Assembly: GCA_902984215.1 (NCBI GenBank)
Contig: CADWAF010004189.1
Span: 1 to 19,637 of the forward strand
DNA length: 19,637 nucleotides
DNA from: Willaertia magna
Taxonomy: Eukaryota; Heterolobosea; Eutetramitea; Acrasida; Naegleriidae
Direction: 5' to 3'
Shown in pieces: positions 209-18,042 of the stretch. The translations under genes and the position numbers were made by a program. A model generated the notes under the pieces. That model did not search any database. It was not told the DNA's origin and saw only the letters and a program-made list of their open reading frames with translations. The first letter of the stretch is position 1, and each line of letters starts with the position of its first letter.

Positions 209-2204
209 TTAATTTAATCTTGTACTAGTTAAAATAGTTCTAGCAATTTCTACTGCTGTCTCAAATACGTATCGTTTTGTAAATGCTGAATCAAAAATTT
301 GAAACAAAACCATATCATTCTGTTCATTCATATTTTCACTGTCACTATTCAATATTATTGTCTCAAAATCATCTAAATCTCCAATTTGACTCGAGGGCAC
401 CCCAAAATGAGGCCTCTTTTCCTTTCTTTGTTTTTCCTTTAAATCATTAATTGTTTTCTCTATAGACAAAGCAGCATTTTGACAAAGAGTTTTAGGAATA
501 ATATTACAAGCTTCAATAAAACATTCCACACCATCCTTTTCAGGGGAATTTCTCATGTTTGTAAAAAGTAATTCTTCCAATTTATCCATTAAATGAATTT
601 CAAAAGCTCCACCTCCTGCCACAAATTCATTTCTTTCATTATTTTCATTCATTACAAATGCAGTGTATAATGCATCTTGAGCATGTCTTATATATTCTAA
701 ACATTGTTCCTCAGTTGTACCTTTTATAATCACTGTACAAGTTGTTGAATTCACTGTTGACTTATCGTCATTAGCAGTATACGCCTTAATTTTTGTAAAT
801 GGCTCCCTTGTTCCATACATCTCCATTAATTCCACACTTTCAACCAAACCAACATGACTTTCATCTAAATCGCCTATCGATGGTGCTATTTTACAATTAC
901 AAGTTTTACCAATAAATAATAAATCTTCTCTCTTTACATTTGGAATACATAAAATATTAAATTCTTGTAAATAATGAGACACTAACGCATGAACATTCCC
1001 TTTCGTAATTACAATATCAGCACCTACATCTCTCACTCTTTCAGCTTGTGATTTAAATACCATTTCCTCATCAATCTTCCAATTCTTTAATTGTTCTACC
1101 GTTTCAAGCATTGCATAATGTTTCGTTTTCGTTCGTTGTCTTTGAATCCCATCATTAATCAAAACAATCTTATAAGGATGTATTGACTGCAATTGTCCAC
1201 TATCATTACTGTCATTGTTATCTTTTAGCCATCTTGGCAATAATTGTTTTAAACAACCAATCGCTTGTAGCCTTAATAGAACTGTACTTTTTAATAGTTC
1301 TGATTCAAGTAAAACAGATTTTCCACCAATCATTGAAACGAAACGAATAGCCTTCATATCAAATAGTGGATTAATTGTTATTGAATTCATTGTCTTTCCT
1401 TTTTCTTCTTTACGCATTACGCTTTGTATTGCATTGGTAATAAGATTTGCAAAATAGTTGGAATAGAGATGAATAGAAATCTTAGAAGAAAGTGCAGACC
1501 TGACAGTTCTTAATAGCTTATTACTGTCATTCCTATCATTCTTATTATCATCATTGTCATCTACTTTTTGATTGTCGTTATTGGATAATATTAAATCCTT
1601 TACAATTGCATTGGGTAAAATTGTATTCACTAAATAGTCTAATGCCATATCATACCCATTCAAAATGTTTTGAATTGATACATTAGCCTTAACATGTTTA
1701 GAATAGGCTGTTTGACTGTAATATCCAATAAGTAAATCAATAAGTATCAATATCAGTATAGTATCAGTATAATATAACAGTTCCGATAGTGTGGAGTATT
1801 GTTAGGAAGGCAAGGCTTATTGTTAGCTTACAAGGCTTTGTTTTACTTACATGAAAGAAGAAGCTAACAAGGCTGCACTAGTTGTTCCATCTCCGATAAG
1901 TTTATCTAAAGTAAGAACTGATTCAACTAATAAAAGTGCAGCAGGTTGTTGTACTTGTAATTGACGTAATATAAAAGCACCATCTTGACTAACTAAAACT
2001 CTTTCTTAATTGTTAAATTATTAAATTATTAAATTGTTATTGAATAATCATAAATTATTATGTATTAATAATACTTTACTTTTTCTTTGGGTCTACAATT
2101 AATTTTGAATGGGCATTCGGACCTAAAGAAGATGCTAAAATTTCACCCAAAACAGTTACGGCCATTACATTTTCTCTCAATTGCAAAGCTTCCTTTGAAA
2201 ACAT
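209..2204 (-). CDS. CCT/TCP-1 family cytosolic chaperonin subunit (subunit not assigned)
   Basis: Group II chaperonin subunit, part of the ATP-driven ring that folds actin, tubulin and other proteins in the cytosol. I read three exons on the minus strand: 2204-2080, 2000-1851 and 1715-209, giving about 593 residues (CCT subunits are usually about 530-560; Asn/Asp-rich inserts add length). Exon 1 carries the GPN motif (residues 28-30) of the first ATP loop. Exon 2 has SQDGAFIL (46-53) and the nucleotide-binding GDGTT (78-82). Exon 3 has the equatorial return motif VAGGGA and the family stretch IIPKTLCQNA. Intron 1716-1850 has GTAAGT and TTACAG ends and restores an Ile codon. Intron 2001-2079 starts GTAAAG and ends AAG, with a less certain acceptor. 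The start follows nine A residues. Local resemblances to the beta, epsilon and theta subunits conflict, so I leave the subunit open. Family seen in the sequence; subunit unknown. Confidence 0.9.
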
Positions 2205-3929: not shown

Positions 3930-4922
3930 TCAACTATTAAAAGTTACAAAATATGGATATTTCAATGATGGAATTCCTTCGGTTTCATTAATAAATTGTA
4001 CCAATTCATTAGTTAAAACTGGTTTCTCTTCATTACCAATAATACTTTCCTTATTTAAACCAATTTCCATTAAAAAATACATATCAGGTCCATCCAATAC
4101 TTTACAATTCACCTCTTTTACAACTGTTTTATTCTTTTCAATAAATTCTTTATTTAATCTTTCCAATAACTTTTCTGGAAATTCATCTTCTTTTAACAAA
4201 TCTCTTTCAATAGTTTCAAACTTTCCAGCCAATAATTTTTTAATTTTACTTTTTGTAAATTGTAATCCATCAACACTTGCACAATGTGGATTTAACATTA
4301 AATCTGGAATGTCAATTGTGTTGTTATTACTATATTTATCTAAATTTACAATAAAATCAAATACAGGCACTAAAGGTAAAGCCACAACATTAACTTTGTC
4401 TTTCAAACCATTAAATCTTTTAAGAAACTGATTTGCATTATCAATACTTGTAAATATTGGAACGTAATGTACATTTATTTTTGGTATTTTAATTTCAATA
4501 AAGTTGGCACTGGTGTTTTGTTGTTGATTTAAATTTGTTGTTTTTTCATAGATAATGGCAATAATGTATTGATTATTTGACAATAAAGTTTGATAAAATC
4601 TTGTCATTTGATTTGTGTCATTTCTATTTATTTGATTATAAAAATCATTTAATTGATTTAATTGTTGTTTTACATTAATTTCTTGTTTTTGTTTTGGTAG
4701 TTCGTTATTATTATAATTATTGAAAATGTTCGAACAAAAAAGAGAAGCGTGAAAGTGTTGTTGTTTTTGAATTGTTTGTTGATGTTGCTGTTGAAAAAGA
4801 CAATGAACGAGAAGAGATAAAGAATTTAATTTTGTTGTGATCGCAGTTGTTGTTTTTGGAATAAGTATTCTGTTAATGCTGTTATTGTTTTTGAACTTTA
4901 CAATATTGATTGTTTTTTTCAT
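3930..4922 (-). CDS. SseB-domain-like protein, copy 1
   Basis: A single exon of 330 residues. The middle part, VPIFTSIDNANQF (154-166) followed by DLMLNPH (207-213), resembles the SseB N-terminal domain of bacterial proteins (pattern VPvFTS...lvlNP). This is a recognition by eye, not a database hit. The C-terminal 110 residues are shared almost unchanged with the copy at 11507. The first 45 residues are basic and rich in Ser, Thr and Asn without acidic residues, like a mitochondrial presequence, and are followed by Gln/Asn-rich linker. The stop is TGA. The 11507 copy has 8 extra bases there and ends in TAA, and the 3' UTRs match beyond that point. Molecular function is unknown. The domain call is tentative; the gene itself is secure because it has a conserved paralogue. 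Confidence 0.75.
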   Translation of the reverse strand: MKKTINIVKFKNNNSINRILIPKTTTAITTKLNSLSLLVHCLFQQQHQQTIQKQQHFHASLFCSNIFNNYNNNELPKQKQEINVKQQLNQLNDFYNQINRNDTNQMTRFYQTLLSNNQYIIAIIYEKTTNLNQQQNTSANFIEIKIPKINVHYVPIFTSIDNANQFLKRFNGLKDKVNVVALPLVPVFDFIVNLDKYSNNNTIDIPDLMLNPHCASVDGLQFTKSKIKKLLAGKFETIERDLLKEDEFPEKLLERLNKEFIEKNKTVVKEVNCKVLDGPDMYFLMEIGLNKESIIGNEEKPVLTNELVQFINETEGIPSLKYPYFVTFNS

Positions 4923-11426: not shown

Positions 11427-11463
11427 TAAATTTGAAATTAAATTTGAAATTAAATTTGAAATT
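11424..11463 (+). repeat. 12-bp tandem repeat, three units plus a partial
   Basis: The unit AATTAAATTTGA is repeated exactly three times (11424-11459), followed by AATT. It lies at the boundary between the decayed BRCT gene and the second SseB-like copy, close to where the duplicated block would join. Confidence 0.85.
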
Positions 11464-11506
11464 GGTGGAGATGACATTGCACTGTCAAAAAAATTTAAAA
11501 AAAACA

Positions 11507-12490
11507 ATGAAAAGAACAATTTCATCCGTTGTTGTGAAAAAGATCAACAAGACACCACAACTATTATTATTCACAAAAACAAATTCATTATTATCTAATA
11601 TTTCATCTCTTCAACAAAAAGTACAACAATTTCATCAACAAAATCACTTTTCACTTTTCAATTCATCCACTTTCAACACTAATCATTCCACCGCTACTGA
11701 CAACACTGACAACAACAACAATATCGACAACAATAAACAATTTGAAGAAACTGGCAGAAAACTTAATCAATTACATGAAATTTATAATCAATTAAATAAA
11801 CAAGATTTATCTCAAATGAAAACATTTTACAAGAGTTTATTTATTGACAATCACGCAGCGCTTGCCATCGTTTACAATACAAATCACGATCCAACCATTA
11901 CATCATCACAACAACAACAACAACCAATTAGTTTCTTTACATTAAATTCACCAAACGCAACATCTTTTGTTCCAATCTTTACCAATATGAATTTACTTAC
12001 TGAAACTTTAGAAAAGTACAAAATTCAAGATGGCTCTGTCAATATTGTATTATTGGGAATTCCAAATTTATTAAATTATGTTGATAAATGTGCAGAAAAT
12101 GATCCAAAGAATACACCAGATATTTTATTAAATCCAAATCATAAAAATGGTGAATTAATCTTTACAAAAAGTAAAATTAAAAAATTATTGGCTGGAAAGC
12201 TTGAAACTATTGAAAGAGAATTATTGAAAGAAGATGAATTTCCAGAAAATTTAATGGAAAGATTAAATAAAGAATTTATTGAAAAGAATAAAACAGTTGT
12301 GACTAGAGTTGATTGTAAAGTATTGGATGGACCTGATATGTATTTTTTAATGGAAATTGGTTTAAATAAGGAAAGTATTATTGGTAATGAAGATAAACCA
12401 GTTTTAACTAATGAATTGGTACAATTTATTAATGAAACCGAAGGAATTCCATCATTGAAATATCCATATTTTGTAACTTTTAAATTTTAA
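11507..12490 (+). CDS. SseB-domain-like protein, copy 2
   Basis: 327 residues from the ATG at 11507. I chose this over the in-frame ATG at 11432 because MKRTISSVVVKK aligns with MKKTINIVKF of the 3930 copy and the upstream codons are tandem repeat. The architecture matches copy 1: a basic presequence-like start (possible mitochondrial targeting), an Asn/Gln/Thr-rich linker, an SseB-like core (FVPIFTNMNLL and DILLNPNHK) and a nearly identical C-terminal 110 residues from FTKSKIKKLLAG on. Over the last 330 coding bases the two copies differ at only about 15 positions by my count, while their N-terminal halves are strongly diverged. The 3' UTRs also match. This pattern fits gene conversion of the 3' part or relaxed constraint on the N-terminus. 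Function unknown. Confidence 0.75.
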   Translation: MKRTISSVVVKKINKTPQLLLFTKTNSLLSNISSLQQKVQQFHQQNHFSLFNSSTFNTNHSTATDNTDNNNNIDNNKQFEETGRKLNQLHEIYNQLNKQDLSQMKTFYKSLFIDNHAALAIVYNTNHDPTITSSQQQQQPISFFTLNSPNATSFVPIFTNMNLLTETLEKYKIQDGSVNIVLLGIPNLLNYVDKCAENDPKNTPDILLNPNHKNGELIFTKSKIKKLLAGKLETIERELLKEDEFPENLMERLNKEFIEKNKTVVTRVDCKVLDGPDMYFLMEIGLNKESIIGNEDKPVLTNELVQFINETEGIPSLKYPYFVTFKF

Positions 12491-12755: not shown

Positions 12756-13605
12756 TTATTGTAATAAAGCAGAATAATATAACAATTCTTCAGAATCATG
12801 TTCTACTTTCTTTAAACTAGTTTTCTTTTTTGAAGTATTTGAACCATTCACACATAAAACATCTTCTACTTCTTCTTCTCCTTCCATTAACTCAAAATAT
12901 AAATGTGGTTCAATTAATTCCATTTCACCTAACAACATTTCACAATTATTATAATCTTTAATTAATACATCTACTCTACAATATAAAATTAAATGATTTT
13001 GTGATTTTTCTTCTTTAACTTTTTTAATTAATTGTTCAATTTTTATGTAAAATCTATTATCAAATGTTTCTTTTGGTATTCCTTTAATAGTTGATTCAAA
13101 TTCTGGTTGAACACGAAAATCACCACGTTTTGGACTTTTTTTAATCACGTGATGGAATTTTTCTGCAATGTAAATAAAACTGTATTCTCCATCGTTTACA
13201 ATTTCTTCACAAAATGGTTGAACTAAATAATCTTTATCTTCTTCTAATGACCATTTTCTTAAATAATTAAATATTTTATTTCCCTTAACTAAATAATCAT
13301 TGTTGTCATTGCTGTCATTGCTTTCACTATTGTGATTGCTGTCATTGCTGTCATTGCTGTCATTATCTTTAGCAATGACATATGTTCTAAAAGAACCTGC
13401 AGACACAGCAGGTTTAATCACTAATTTATTTGTATTAAATTTAGTAAATAATTTATCTAAAAGAATATCATTATTCAATTCCATTTCTAAAACTTGTTTA
13501 TTTATTAATTCCGTTGGAACGCAAGAAATACCGGTATTCCACTTGTCAATATCAAAAAAATAAGTTTTTGAAGAATTCCATAAATAAGTTTTTGAAGAAT
13601 TCCAT
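12756..13605 (-). pseudogene. ATP-grasp domain protein, C-terminal part (gene split by a transposon)
   Basis: The 3' portion of an ATP-grasp ligase-like gene; the remaining 5' piece lies at 17295-17396 beyond the transposon. Recognisable elements are WNSSK.YFFDI, the nucleotide-binding VIKPAVSAGSFRTYV (about 13381-13424), LVQPFCEEIVNDGEYSFIY, KSPKRGDFRVQPEF, YCRVDVLI and GEMELIEPHLYFEL. This order is that of a glutathione-synthetase-like ATP-grasp family common in bacteria, which joins a carboxylate to an amine or thiol using ATP; the substrate here is unknown. A DSN-encoding 9-bp microsatellite (13335-13361) adds a linker absent from typical members. The frame is intact from the transposon edge to the TAA at 12756. 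An internal ATG at 13484 could in principle start a shorter product. Confidence 0.8.
13558..13605. repeat. 24-bp tandem duplication at the transposon target
   Basis: Two exact, adjacent 24-bp copies (13558-13581 and 13582-13605). Each ends in the ATTCCAT heptamer that forms the target-site duplication. In the host frame this is an exact 8-residue duplication (LWNSSKTY). It may predate the insertion or record an earlier excision or repair event at the same site. Confidence 0.9.
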
Positions 13606-13620
13606 CCGGGTGTGGAAACT
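13606..13620 (+). repeat. Left terminal inverted repeat of the transposon
   Basis: CCGGGTGTGGAAACT, identical to the inverted right end. It directly follows the ATTCCAT target duplication at 13599-13605. About 270 nt of apparently non-coding DNA separates the subterminal GGTAACACC from the transposase stop at 13913. Confidence 0.95.
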
Positions 13621-13912
13621 AAAAATTTTCCGGTAACACCCTATTAGTATCTGATTCTTTATGTATGTCTTACCAAATTTGTTACCATTTACTTGTCCTT
13701 TTTAAGATCTTAAAACCCCTTGTATTAAGTCTAAAAGGTTAGGCCAAGTTTTTGCTCTGTTTTCTCTTTGAATGTCTTTGTGTATAAAAATATTGTTCAG
13801 TTTTTTTTTCAAAATTATGGGAATAATTTAATTGCAGATCAATCAAAATTATATTGAAAAGGTGTTTGAATAATTGAAGATTTAATAAATTATTAATTAA
13901 ACTTATTTTTTA

Positions 13913-16900
13913 TTAAATTTCTTGACTTGATTGTAACACTTCTTGAGTAGCATGTTTGACAGAAAGAGATTTTGATTTTCTAGCATAAATCATGAATACG
14001 TTTGAAAGTACTTTCCAGTTTTGATTGATTAAACCTAGTCTCATTAAAAGCTTTTTCTTTGAAATGCTTTGAGAATAAGTAAATTTAACACAATAATTAT
14101 TGTTGTCATCTTTAGATATGGTAAAATTTATACATGGTATTGTAGCAATTAAAGAATATTGTTTGTTGTAACAATGTAAAAATAAATCACAATTTCCTTA
14201 AAAATTTAATTATTAATTAAACTTTAATACTTACCTATTATCATTACATCAGTTAAATAAGCTATAATTGGTTTATCTCTAAAAAAACAAGGGATACCTT
14301 CTTTAATATTAAAATAAGTTTCACTTGTTATTTCTAAATTAAATGAAATATCTGAACGTAAAAAAATTGACATTGGGGAATAAACATTACCATAAGTATT
14401 ATTTGAAATTGATATAATAGACGGAGTTTTTGTAATATCTGGTGGATCAATATTTGTAATTTCTTCATAATTTGTTATACCAAAATTGTGAACATGATAA
14501 CTTTGCCTAATACTTTTACATTTTGTAATATGATATTTTTCTTGTAAAAGTCGACATTTTGTAAGTATTTCATTTGTAATTTTTTCTTTTTCTTTTTTAC
14601 TATTATCATTGTACTCCTTAATAGCCAATTTAAATTCTTCCAAATCCATTTTTTGATTTGAATCAGTTTCATTGTAATTTCTAATCTTTTTAGTATTATG
14701 ATTTATTTCTACACCGTATTTTAAAAGAAATAATTGTCTTGTTTTATGATAATTTTTCATAATGGACATTGCATTTCTTACAAGACAGTTATTAGTAAGA
14801 TATCCAAAATAACCTTCTTCATCATTAGTTCCAAAAATTCTAGTATCTATTTCTTCATTTTCATTTAATTCATTTAATAAATATTGTAAATTATTTGTAT
14901 TGTTTTGTAAAATATCTAAAGTTAATAAATTGGATACTGTAAAATGATTTTGTGGACAAGAATAATTAATATCTTCAAAAAGATTCACCCATTCTTCTAT
15001 TTCTCTCTTGACTATTAATAGTTTTGAAAGAATTTGATGAAGAGTAAATTCTCTATTATGATAACTAAAATAACAAATATTTATCCAACTTAAATATTTA
15101 GCAAGCCCAAAATGTTGATAATACTGAAAAAGTTTATCTACATTCTTTTGTTTACATAAATCAACAAAAAAATCTTCTCTTTGTTTATCTACACAACATA
15201 CTGAACTTTTCTTTACTTTTATAATATTATTTAAATATAAACTTTGTAAAGTAGCCATAGAAAATATTTCAATTTCCGCCATACAAATATTATAAATTAA
15301 AAATGAATGATTACTATAATTAATAATTTTAATTGTTTGAATTCCAGTTTTGTTAATAAGTATTAATGTAAGATAATTTTCATTATAACGACCAATATAA
15401 CATCCTTCATTAGAACTACTTAATTCTGAATTTAATTCCCAAATAAATGAACACATTTTTTTTAAATAAGTATTTTCATTTAAAATAATATGAATTTCAA
15501 GTTTTGAAGTATTTTCTTTAAAAAACCATATTCTTAAATACTGAGGAAATGGTTTATCAAAATTAATAAATGAATATTGAAATTCTTTTACAGTATTAAA
15601 AATAACTTCTTTTTTGATATTTTTAATAAATATTTTTTCAATAAACAATCCATTTCTTAAACATTTAGCATAATGAACATAACAATAAAAATGTAAAATC
15701 CCTAATCTTTTAAAAAACTCGCTTTTTACAAAAGATCTATTAGCAGAACCAGCATTTGTAATAAATAATTTAACATTAACTTTATAAATATCAAAAAATG
15801 TATGAAATAATGATTCTAAAATTGAAGCATTTTCTTTATGACAAAATTTAAAATTTGCTGGAAGTGATATTTGACCATCAATACTTGTTAAAAACAGTTG
15901 TGACATATATTGTGCTAAATTTTCTAATTTAATATCATTCAATAAATTATCAATTAAAGAAAAAGATACAATTTCATTAAGTCCAATTATTTCTTTTGTT
16001 ACTAAACTTATTTGAATACCCGATACTATATCCATAGCATCACATTTTAATGCAAATATCTTATTTTCTTTACATAAAGTTTTTACAATTTTAAAATCTT
16101 GTTCTCTATCACCTAAAGATAAACTATTATTTGAAAAATAATATCTTATTAATCTAGAACTAGGTAATGGTATATTAATTTCATTACTATTAAGACTAAA
16201 TTTATCATTTTCTTCATTATGATTAATTCCTCTTATTAAATATTCATAAGTTTGTTCACTTATATTACAAAGAAGATCAAAACAAAAAGCTATCAAACCA
16301 TAATTCCATTTCATACTTCTTGTATCCTCAAGACAAAGATATTTTGTTCCGTTTAAAATGATTTCATAAAATAGTGAACCTTTAATTAATTTTCCATAAT
16401 ATAAACTAGTTAATAAATTTATTACAAGTTCATCATCAAAGAAAATATTGTACTTATTTATAAATTCTTTATTTGCTTCACAAATTTTGTTAAATTTAAA
16501 TATTGATTCGGATATTTCTTTGTTTTTAAAATTAAAATTATTATTATTTACTGTTTGAGTTAAATTTATATATTGTGTATTAGAGTAATTATGATTATTT
16601 TGATATGATTGAGATGTCATTGTATCAATAAAATTTGACAAATATATTTCTGTCTCACCTAAATATTTTATACATAAAAAACTAATCAATTTTATCTTTT
16701 TACAATATAACATAATATTATCCTTTTTTAATAAATTAAATAAATTTCTTTCACAAAACCTTTTTGTTGTTTTATTAATTTTATTATAAAAATCACTACT
16801 CTTCATAATTCCATTCAACATTAAATTATATATAGCGTTTTTTTTCTCTTCTTTATTATCTTCATTATTTAAAATATAATATGGAAAATCAGGAAAGTCA

Positions 16901-17181
16901 TTAAAATAAATATTAGTATATTTATTTAATATTTGATCACAATTATTAAAACAATACTCAATTTCTCTTTTACTAAACAAAAAATATAAAGATTTCGGAA
17001 TTTTTTGATTTTCTTTAAATAAAGAAGTTAAGTAATTAAATAAAAAATTTTTAATATCATCTTCATTCATTCCTGTTAATACTGATAAATGTTTAAAATT
17101 CTTTATTAAATTATTATTTATTTCATTAATTATTATATCAACTAAGTCTCTTCTAATAATACCAACAAACAGCTTTACCAT
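13913..17181 (-). CDS. DDE-type transposase, P/THAP9-like (tentative), two exons
   Basis: Exon 17181-14235 and exon 14196-13913, joined over a 38-nt intron (GTAAGT...TTAAG), encode about 1076 residues; without the splice the protein ends three codons after the junction. RNase-H-like landmarks are KCDAMDI (Asp381), a helical insert with IDGQISLP, ITNAGSANRSF (about 474-484) and HYAKCLRNGLF (His503 onward). The last two correspond to the TxDGAxxN and H.xKxxRN motifs of P-element/THAP9-type transposases. The position expected to hold the second catalytic Asp is Asn476, so activity is doubtful. I could not place the third acidic residue or an N-terminal zinc finger. The frame is intact over more than 1000 codons, suggesting a recent insertion. 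A short overlapping upstream ATG frame (MDNGKKW) precedes the start. It is transcribed in the same direction as the interrupted host gene. Confidence 0.75.
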
Positions 17182-17279
17182 TTTTTTCCGTTGTCCATCT
17201 TCTTGTTAGAACAACAAAAAAGTACTTGTTAATAAAAAAAGTCGGTGTCTATAAAGAGTTTGGTAACACCACTTTTGTG

Positions 17280-17294
17280 AGTTTCCACACCCGG
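17280..17294 (-). repeat. Right terminal inverted repeat of the transposon
   Basis: Perfect complement of the left end, followed at once by the second ATTCCAT (17295-17301). The 99 nt between the transposase start (17181) and this repeat should contain its promoter. Confidence 0.95.
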
Positions 17295-17396
17295 ATTCCA
17301 TAACATTAATAAAGGATCATTATAAACTTTAATATTTTTATATTCTTTTTGTAAAGTAATTAATTCTTGTAACCAATCTACAAATTTAGAATAATA
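17295..17396 (-). pseudogene. ATP-grasp domain protein, 5' remnant beyond the transposon
   Basis: This frame reads YYSKFVDWLQELITLQ... then VYNDPLLMLWN up to the transposon edge. It matches the segment just before the WN.K.Y motif in this ATP-grasp family, where a conserved TWDY usually precedes F..WL. Here YY follows a TAA codon (17397-17399) and no match continues upstream. The N-terminal 70-80 residues expected for the family are therefore missing, either lost at a rearrangement junction or on an exon I cannot see. Confidence 0.65.
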
Positions 17397-18042
17397 TTAT
17401 GAAAAGGGATATTCTAGTATTATTTTTGCTGAAGTACCTGAATTGGCAGTTGACTTGACACATTCATATTCAAAGAAAGCAATTGAAGAATTTTTAAAAG
17501 TTGAATTATTTACAAGATTTCCATTGGATGGAAAATATTATTTAATTAAAGGAAATGCCTTTTTTAGTTTAGGTATGTTTGAACAAGCAATCCATTGTTA
17601 TCAATACGTTGATAAATATTCTTCCAAATTGGTAAGTAGTTTATTTTTTGACACACAACATTTTACAATGAAACAACCTGGAACGTTATAGCCAAAACAA
17701 TCAGTTATTGATGCCATTGTAAACTCTTGTAATAGTTTAGTTGCAATGGGTTATGCTCCAATGTGTTTAACGGAAATTGATAAATATATTGAAAAATATG
17801 AAGGTGATATTCGTTTAAGATTATTAAAGATTTATGTTGAAGAAGTAATGTGTAAATCAAAAGCTGATCTTACTGATGTTAAAGAAAAATGTATAAATAT
17901 AATTAAAGAATTATCTGATCCAAACTTTAAAATAGCTGATGATAGTAGACCTTATTTTAACAACTCTTTAGAATATGTAAAACGTAAAATTACACATTTG
18001 GAAAATTCTATTAATGATCCAAATATTGCTGAAACGTGGTAA
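17395..18042 (+). CDS. Helical-repeat (TPR-like) protein lacking a visible 5' end
   Basis: An open frame from 17395 to a 60-nt intron (17632-17691, GTAAGT...TATAG, phase 0), then exon 17692-18042 ending TAA. About 195 residues are visible. The segment GKYYLIKGNAFFSLGMFEQAIHCYQYV (about 17530-17610) has the spacing of a tetratricopeptide repeat, and the rest is predicted helical (ITHLENSINDPN near the end). There is no in-frame ATG before the repeat region, and a TAA lies at 17392-17394, so the start is absent or on an upstream exon; AAAAG at 17402-17406 could be an acceptor. It shares its truncated 5' boundary with the divergent ATP-grasp remnant. Probably a protein-binding scaffold or a broken gene. 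Family not recognised. Confidence 0.55.

Follow-up and report, generated by a model that had tools for sequence, protein, structure and literature searches.

A probable P-related DNA transposon and its decayed relatives in Willaertia magna

The window analysed here is the whole 19,637-nucleotide stretch of Willaertia magna contig CADWAF010004189.1, to whose positions all coordinates refer. A gene of the ATP-grasp-like type is interrupted in it by an element with 15-bp terminal inverted repeats (TIRs), a 7-bp target site duplication (TSD) and a single transposase gene. This element is likely to be a cut-and-paste Asp-Asp-Glu (DDE) transposon that is distantly related to the P superfamily and belongs to a small, mostly decayed W. 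magna family. Its outer limits and terminal sequences are:

13606 to 17294: whole element, 3,689 bp, delimited by TIRs and TSD; transposase gene on the minus strand
13599 to 13605: left copy of the TSD, ATTCCAT
17295 to 17301: right copy of the TSD, ATTCCAT
13606 to 13620, plus strand: left TIR, CCGGGTGTGGAAACT, 15 bp
17280 to 17294, minus strand: right TIR, 15 bp
13632 to 13640, plus strand: subterminal 9-mer GGTAACACC, left copy, 11 bp inside the left TIR
17262 to 17270, plus strand: subterminal 9-mer GGTAACACC, right copy, 9 bp inside the right TIR
13680 to 13687, plus strand: TGTTACCA, 59 bp inside the TIR, left one of two inverted subterminal copies
17261 to 17268, minus strand: TGTTACCA, right member of the inverted subterminal pair, 11 bp inside the TIR

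A preliminary description of this DNA had claimed 15-bp TIRs, a 7-bp duplication and a host frame that resumes beyond the insertion, and this proved correct to the base. The two TIRs are identical at 15 of 15 positions, ATTCCAT stands on both flanks, and the combination of a 15-bp inverted repeat with a flanking 7-bp direct repeat occurs once in the window and in none of 200 first-order Markov shuffles. The host frame, on the minus strand, runs into the element as ...NDPLLMLWN, with 34 codons open, and is taken up again beyond it as (WN)SSKTY.... An intein or intron was considered as well and set aside in view of the TIRs, the duplication and a gene of the insertion's own on the strand of the host gene. 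The GGTAACACC copies near both ends are in direct orientation and, like the TGTTACCA pair, are putative transposase-binding sites. In P elements, too, the binding sites lie at differing distances (9 and 21 bp), according to the available part of PMC7776569.

The transposase gene comprises the following parts and presumed catalytic residues, where names such as C212 denote other W. magna contigs that carry relatives:

14235 to 17181, minus strand: exon 1, 982 codons and one base, ATG at 17181
14197 to 14234, minus strand: predicted 38-nt intron, GTAAGT...TTTAAG, based on splice signals
13913 to 14196, minus strand: predicted exon 2, 93 whole codons followed by TAA
15724 to 16086, minus strand: residues 366-486, match to Pfam family PF21787 (TNP-like_RNaseH_N), E 0.016
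16039 to 16041, minus strand: Asp381, presumed first catalytic residue; also present in C212 and C302
15754 to 15756, minus strand: Asn476, presumed second catalytic position, placed by alignment
15673 to 15684, minus strand: [C/D](2)H motif C500-Y-V-H503; CYEH in C212, CYSH in C302
14815 to 14817, minus strand: Glu789 in TNDEEGYFG, presumed third catalytic residue; TNDLEGFFG in C212

Unspliced, the transposase frame is an uninterrupted open reading frame (ORF) of 985 codons that ends at 14224; spliced as predicted, it would yield a protein of 1,076 residues ending at 13913. The length of over 1000 residues proposed earlier is reached with the predicted intron and not by the uninterrupted codons. 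An open frame of 93 codons, as in exon 2, appeared in 2 of 20,000 Markov sequences, and comparison of exon 2 with the C212 C-terminus gave no significant similarity (best E 0.46); this exon is predicted from the splice signals and the open frame.

Relatives were sought in a W. magna contig set of 19.24 Mb in 894 contigs, probably about half of the genome. For W. magna c2c, a genome of 36.5 Mb with 24.8% GC is given in the available part of PMC6892926, and 1-kb slices of the window range from 19% to 33% GC. The shortest contig among the listed loci has 10,272 bases and short contigs appear to be missing from the set, so copy counts are lower bounds. A protein search with the window transposase identified on C212 a relative of 28% identity (E 2.9e-35; aligned residues 209-980) and on C858 an N-terminal piece with E 0.0014, and the halves of the C212 protein used as queries led to additional relatives on C821, C302, C218 and C431. 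All except C858 have stops in the matched or a neighbouring stretch, C212 with one in-frame TAG and C821 being full of them. C858 has an open ORF of 357 codons that ends before the catalytic region, with a GTGTTAC-like motif, seen by eye, upstream of its ATG.

Two of these relatives, C212 and C821, share homologous ends in addition to a homologous transposase. Their DNA is 85-88% identical, compared to 28% identity between C212 and the window protein, and judged by their sequences they are another subfamily than the window element. With the window element they have in common a homologous terminus, GAAACT...AAAAATTTT. The similarity between C212 and C821 breaks off at CCAGGCCTAGAAACTCAAAAATTTT (in inward reading), which aligns with the left end of the window element, CCGGGTGTGGAAACTAAAAATTTT. 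Since the homology begins near C212 codon 24, the 5' end and left terminus of C212 are missing or unrecognised. When C821 was scanned with the 15-bp C212 end, both of its termini were recovered, the left one at L039 1466 (1 mismatch) and the right one at L039 5656 (4 mismatches). The flanks of this copy, GCCAAGAA and ACCAAAAA, are equal at 6 of 8 positions, both differences being transitions; this agreement is matched by 0.2% of random 8-mer pairs, with 8 the best of 8 lengths (4 to 11) tried, and the flanks may be read as a decayed 8-bp target duplication. A degenerate pattern derived from the C212/C821 and window ends matched those alone in the contig set and had no control match; as it was built from the matched ends, only its rarity is informative.

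No other copy of the exact element or its TIR was found in the contig set, where the two exact 15-bp TIR sites are the element's own ends. Allowing up to 2 mismatches gave 14 sites, 2 of them again the own ends and the other 12 at chance level (10 with a reversed control pattern). C5 holds a 69-bp left-end fragment of the window element, 86% identical and without the outer 10 bases, for which no partner end was found, and the right-end 113 bp had no other match in the DNA search. Further DNA matches were obtained on C591, C745 and C312 (75-78%, over 69-123 bp of the query), and no paired ends were found on C302, C218, C431 and C858. The genome search with ends and transposase that the preliminary description had proposed thus returned no second exact copy or TIR, together with homologous ends and transposases on other contigs. 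Set against the refuting outcome named there, the lack of another locus with these ends and this TSD length, the answer is mixed.

Some further observations concern the C821 locus. Alignment of L038 3476-6580 (C212) with L039 1903-5649 (C821) contains 274 substitutions between the relatives; counted without an outgroup as C821 against C212, they comprise 207 C to T or G to A changes, 41 reverse transitions and 26 transversions, and the following base shows no clear preference (24-35%). Either strong deamination-like decay or an AT mutation bias would account for this pattern. A foldback insert of about 730 bp (L039 4510-5245; arms of 249 nt, 90%, and 109 nt, 93%) lies inside the decayed transposase, and a 5S ribosomal RNA gene (L039 7098-7216) is located about 1.4 kb from the copy.

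Kinship with the P superfamily is suggested by a profile match, the catalytic motif and the form of the ends. PF21787, in whose name we take TNP to mean P-element transposase, weakly matched the window transposase in a search with residues 215-515, a fragment trimmed to the stretch that aligns with C212, and it matched C212 with E 0.0069 (first half) and 0.014 (whole). It is the sole Pfam family listed for C212 and for the window fragment and was found in none of 10 other window proteins. Both matches end at profile position 134 (residue 486 in the window protein, 404 in C212), 10 residues past the second catalytic position. Both D381 and E789 have aligned counterparts in C212, and an open piece downstream in C302 reads IEGFFG, comparable to the Glu789 region. 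C500 and E789 are separated by about 290 residues; the putative RNase H domain would thus be interrupted by a large insertion as in the Drosophila P element and THAP9, with which the window protein also shares the [C/D](2)H motif. The motif, which follows the second D, is defined in the available part of PMC8230255. Together with the duplications of 7-8 bp, the motif and the weak PF21787 matches of the window fragment and C212 support the earlier impression of a transposase distantly like P and THAP9.

The element also resembles the Drosophila P element and THAP9/Pdre2 in having one transposase gene, short TIRs (15 bp here, 13 bp in zebrafish Pdre2) and subterminal repeats. Short TIRs with a TSD of 7-8 bp, as in the P superfamily, are present in the window element (15 and 7 bp), and the C821 flanks, at 6/8, fit an 8-bp TSD, the length found in the P element. 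Galileo, a Drosophila member of the P superfamily, has, like the window element, a TSD of 7 bp in most copies and one of 8 bp in three, according to the available part of PMC4168063; however, its TIRs are long and foldback-like and its target consensus is GTATTAC, in contrast to 15-bp TIRs and the one target ATTCCAT here. The spacing of the first two catalytic residues (95 in the window protein and 99 in C212, 73 in DmTNP and 87 in zebrafish THAP9) counts among the resemblances to P and THAP9. Differences from them are the 7-bp TSD, the spacing of the second and third catalytic residues (313 in the window protein and 301 in C212 versus 228 in DmTNP) and the family ends, CCGGG/CCAGG as opposed to CATACC in Pdre2. 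Unlike in P and THAP9, the second catalytic residue of the window protein is Asn, and its sequence yielded no THAP C2CH pattern; overall sequence similarity to them was not detectable.

Several results weigh against a P-related transposon. All PF21787 scores (15.9-17.1 bits) are below the curated 24.6, PF21787 was not listed for the whole 985-residue ORF, whose sole listed family was AAA_11 (E 0.11), or for two C302 pieces, one of them giving HTH_58 (E 0.055). The profile searches proposed in the preliminary description point weakly to a superfamily with 7-8 bp TSDs, by a match below the cut-off and unlisted for the whole ORF. P transposase GTP-binding or C-terminal RNase H models are not among the families listed (E up to 10), and the THAP pattern C-x2-4-C-x30-55-C-x2-H is present in none of three proteins, namely the 1,076-residue window protein, C212 and the N-terminal part found on C858. 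No P transposase came up when the PDB was searched by sequence (the best match, Toxofilin with E 0.78, is a chance one), and a collection of 5.8 billion proteins, of which 7,995 and 7,982 candidates were scored, gave no homologue among these. Asn476 stands where Asp is expected, and this subfamily has one copy, with no empty site, in the contig set. Absence from the W. magna proteins of the database is weak evidence, because the T5(S)44 gene set, to which the ABK040 proteins there seem to correspond, was predicted after repeat masking, as stated in the available part of PMC11702301. Viral and prokaryote collections contained 137 and 282 pattern stretches, none of which was confirmed; a six-frame PF21787 scan of the contig set gave no match and is uninformative, since none of 14 control genomes matched either.

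The sub-threshold scores and the lack of a detected THAP finger would suit a DDE transposon of another or new superfamily that shares C/DxxH (hAT, MuDR, Kolobok, Dada or an undescribed one) and is no P relative; indeed, the [C/D](2)H motif is not P-specific and also occurs in these four named groups. Dada elements, moreover, generate duplications of 6-7 bp. They insert in multicopy RNA genes; the target here is a protein gene of which no second copy was found in the contig set. Kolobok duplicates the 4-bp TTAA (available part of PMC9587614), in contrast to ATTCCAT. Pfam searches up to E 10 with the window protein, with C212 and with the N-terminal C858 piece gave no model of another transposase superfamily; for the hAT, Mutator-like and KDZ families this is a weak test, as HMMER filters drop most weak matches. 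Two proteins that are only 28% identical match the same P-type model in the same end register, and we regard a transposon unrelated to P as unlikely. Far less probable still is a domesticated or host gene that lies by chance between inverted repeats and is no longer mobile: the single copy in the contig set and a 985-codon frame that is open apart from an Asn at a catalytic position would agree with it, but an exact duplication with perfect TIRs flush against it, inside the frame of another gene, and relatives with homologous ends speak against it.

The favoured P-related transposon is called P-like in its mode of action and is not classed as a P element or THAP9, because PF21787 is sub-threshold, the motif is shared and no THAP C2CH was found. 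A transposase of the family, not necessarily that of this copy, would pair both ends via the terminal 15 bp and the subterminal GGTAACACC and TGTTACCA, and its RNase H-type DDE site would cut the element out. The element would then be joined to the target at two points separated by 7 bp, or by 8 bp for the relative on C821, and repair would create the duplication.

Asp occupies the presumed second catalytic position in two of three readable relatives, C212 and C302, and Asn does so in the third, the stop-ridden C218; the position is unreadable in C821, which is broken there, and in C858, which ends before it. Ala or Cys at this residue cripples P-type enzymes, according to the available parts of PMC8230255 and PMC10983969. 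Given the Asn, the protein of this copy would on balance be impaired, and the element may have been moved by another copy or before the Asn change; the Asn of C218 does not shift these odds, because that copy is full of stops. That the reading frame is still open fits an insertion of recent date, or a protein kept for binding the ends or as a repressor. The label intact-looking, given earlier, suits the ORF and both ends and not position 476.

The host gene and its surroundings include these features:

12756 to 13598, minus strand: ATP-grasp-like gene, part downstream of the insertion
17302 to 17396, minus strand: ATP-grasp-like gene, part upstream of the insertion, until the frame reaches a stop
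13558 to 13605, plus strand: 24-bp in-frame tandem duplication, two copies, abutting the left end
212 to 1750, minus strand: chaperonin-like protein, 99% identical to a protein of Willaertia magna (Heterolobosea, Naegleriidae)

The proposal that the element splits an ATP-grasp gene is supported by the frame open on both sides and by a match to NCBIfam NF058666 (D-cycloserine synthetase; E 2.4e-11, 43 bits, equivalog cut-off 360); no Pfam family was found for this gene at E up to 10. ATTCCAT is present in three copies around the insertion, since the tandem duplication lies directly against its left end. No second copy of the gene, and thus no empty site, was found in the contig set (sole other match E 0.23). 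Because of a stop at 17397-17399, the 5' part of the gene is missing here. At 17395-17401, about 100 bp outside the element, the ATP-grasp-like (minus strand) and a tetratricopeptide-like (plus strand; labelled by eye) gene fragment meet head to head, both without 5' parts, which reflects either a rearrangement or a false join. An assembly artefact, for which this possible false join could be cited, is hardly credible for the element itself, since the 7-bp duplication and the resumed host frame show that the flanks belong together and the base composition of the region equals that of the contig at large. Elsewhere in the window, two paralogous genes in opposite orientation (3930-4922, minus strand; 11432-12490, plus strand) are nearly identical in their C-terminal halves but diverge at the N-terminus.

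The papers on Willaertia and Naegleria gruberi that were searched, including the available parts of PMC11702301 and PMC4007536, and the databases searched showed no description of an element of this type, and the family may be undescribed in this lineage, as first suggested. A bolder and doubtful view is that of a P-related lineage without THAP that is indigenous to Heterolobosea (Discoba) and marked by CCRGG ends, by duplications of 7-8 bp and by a subterminal pair of GGTAACACC that is flipped; it would form a superfamily of its own beside P, and its last full-length member would act without the canonical second Asp or be an end-binding repressor.

The element is genuine, but what it adds to a known kind of mobile DNA is modest, and so is its practical reach, with one element of putative activity. 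The C821/C212 pair supplies family ends for annotating Willaertia and Naegleria genomes. If the P-related reading is true, P-type RNase H transposases would extend to Discoba, a deep branch of the eukaryotes, and such an enzyme would be, or would once have been, able to work in the absence of the THAP finger by which the animal elements are defined.
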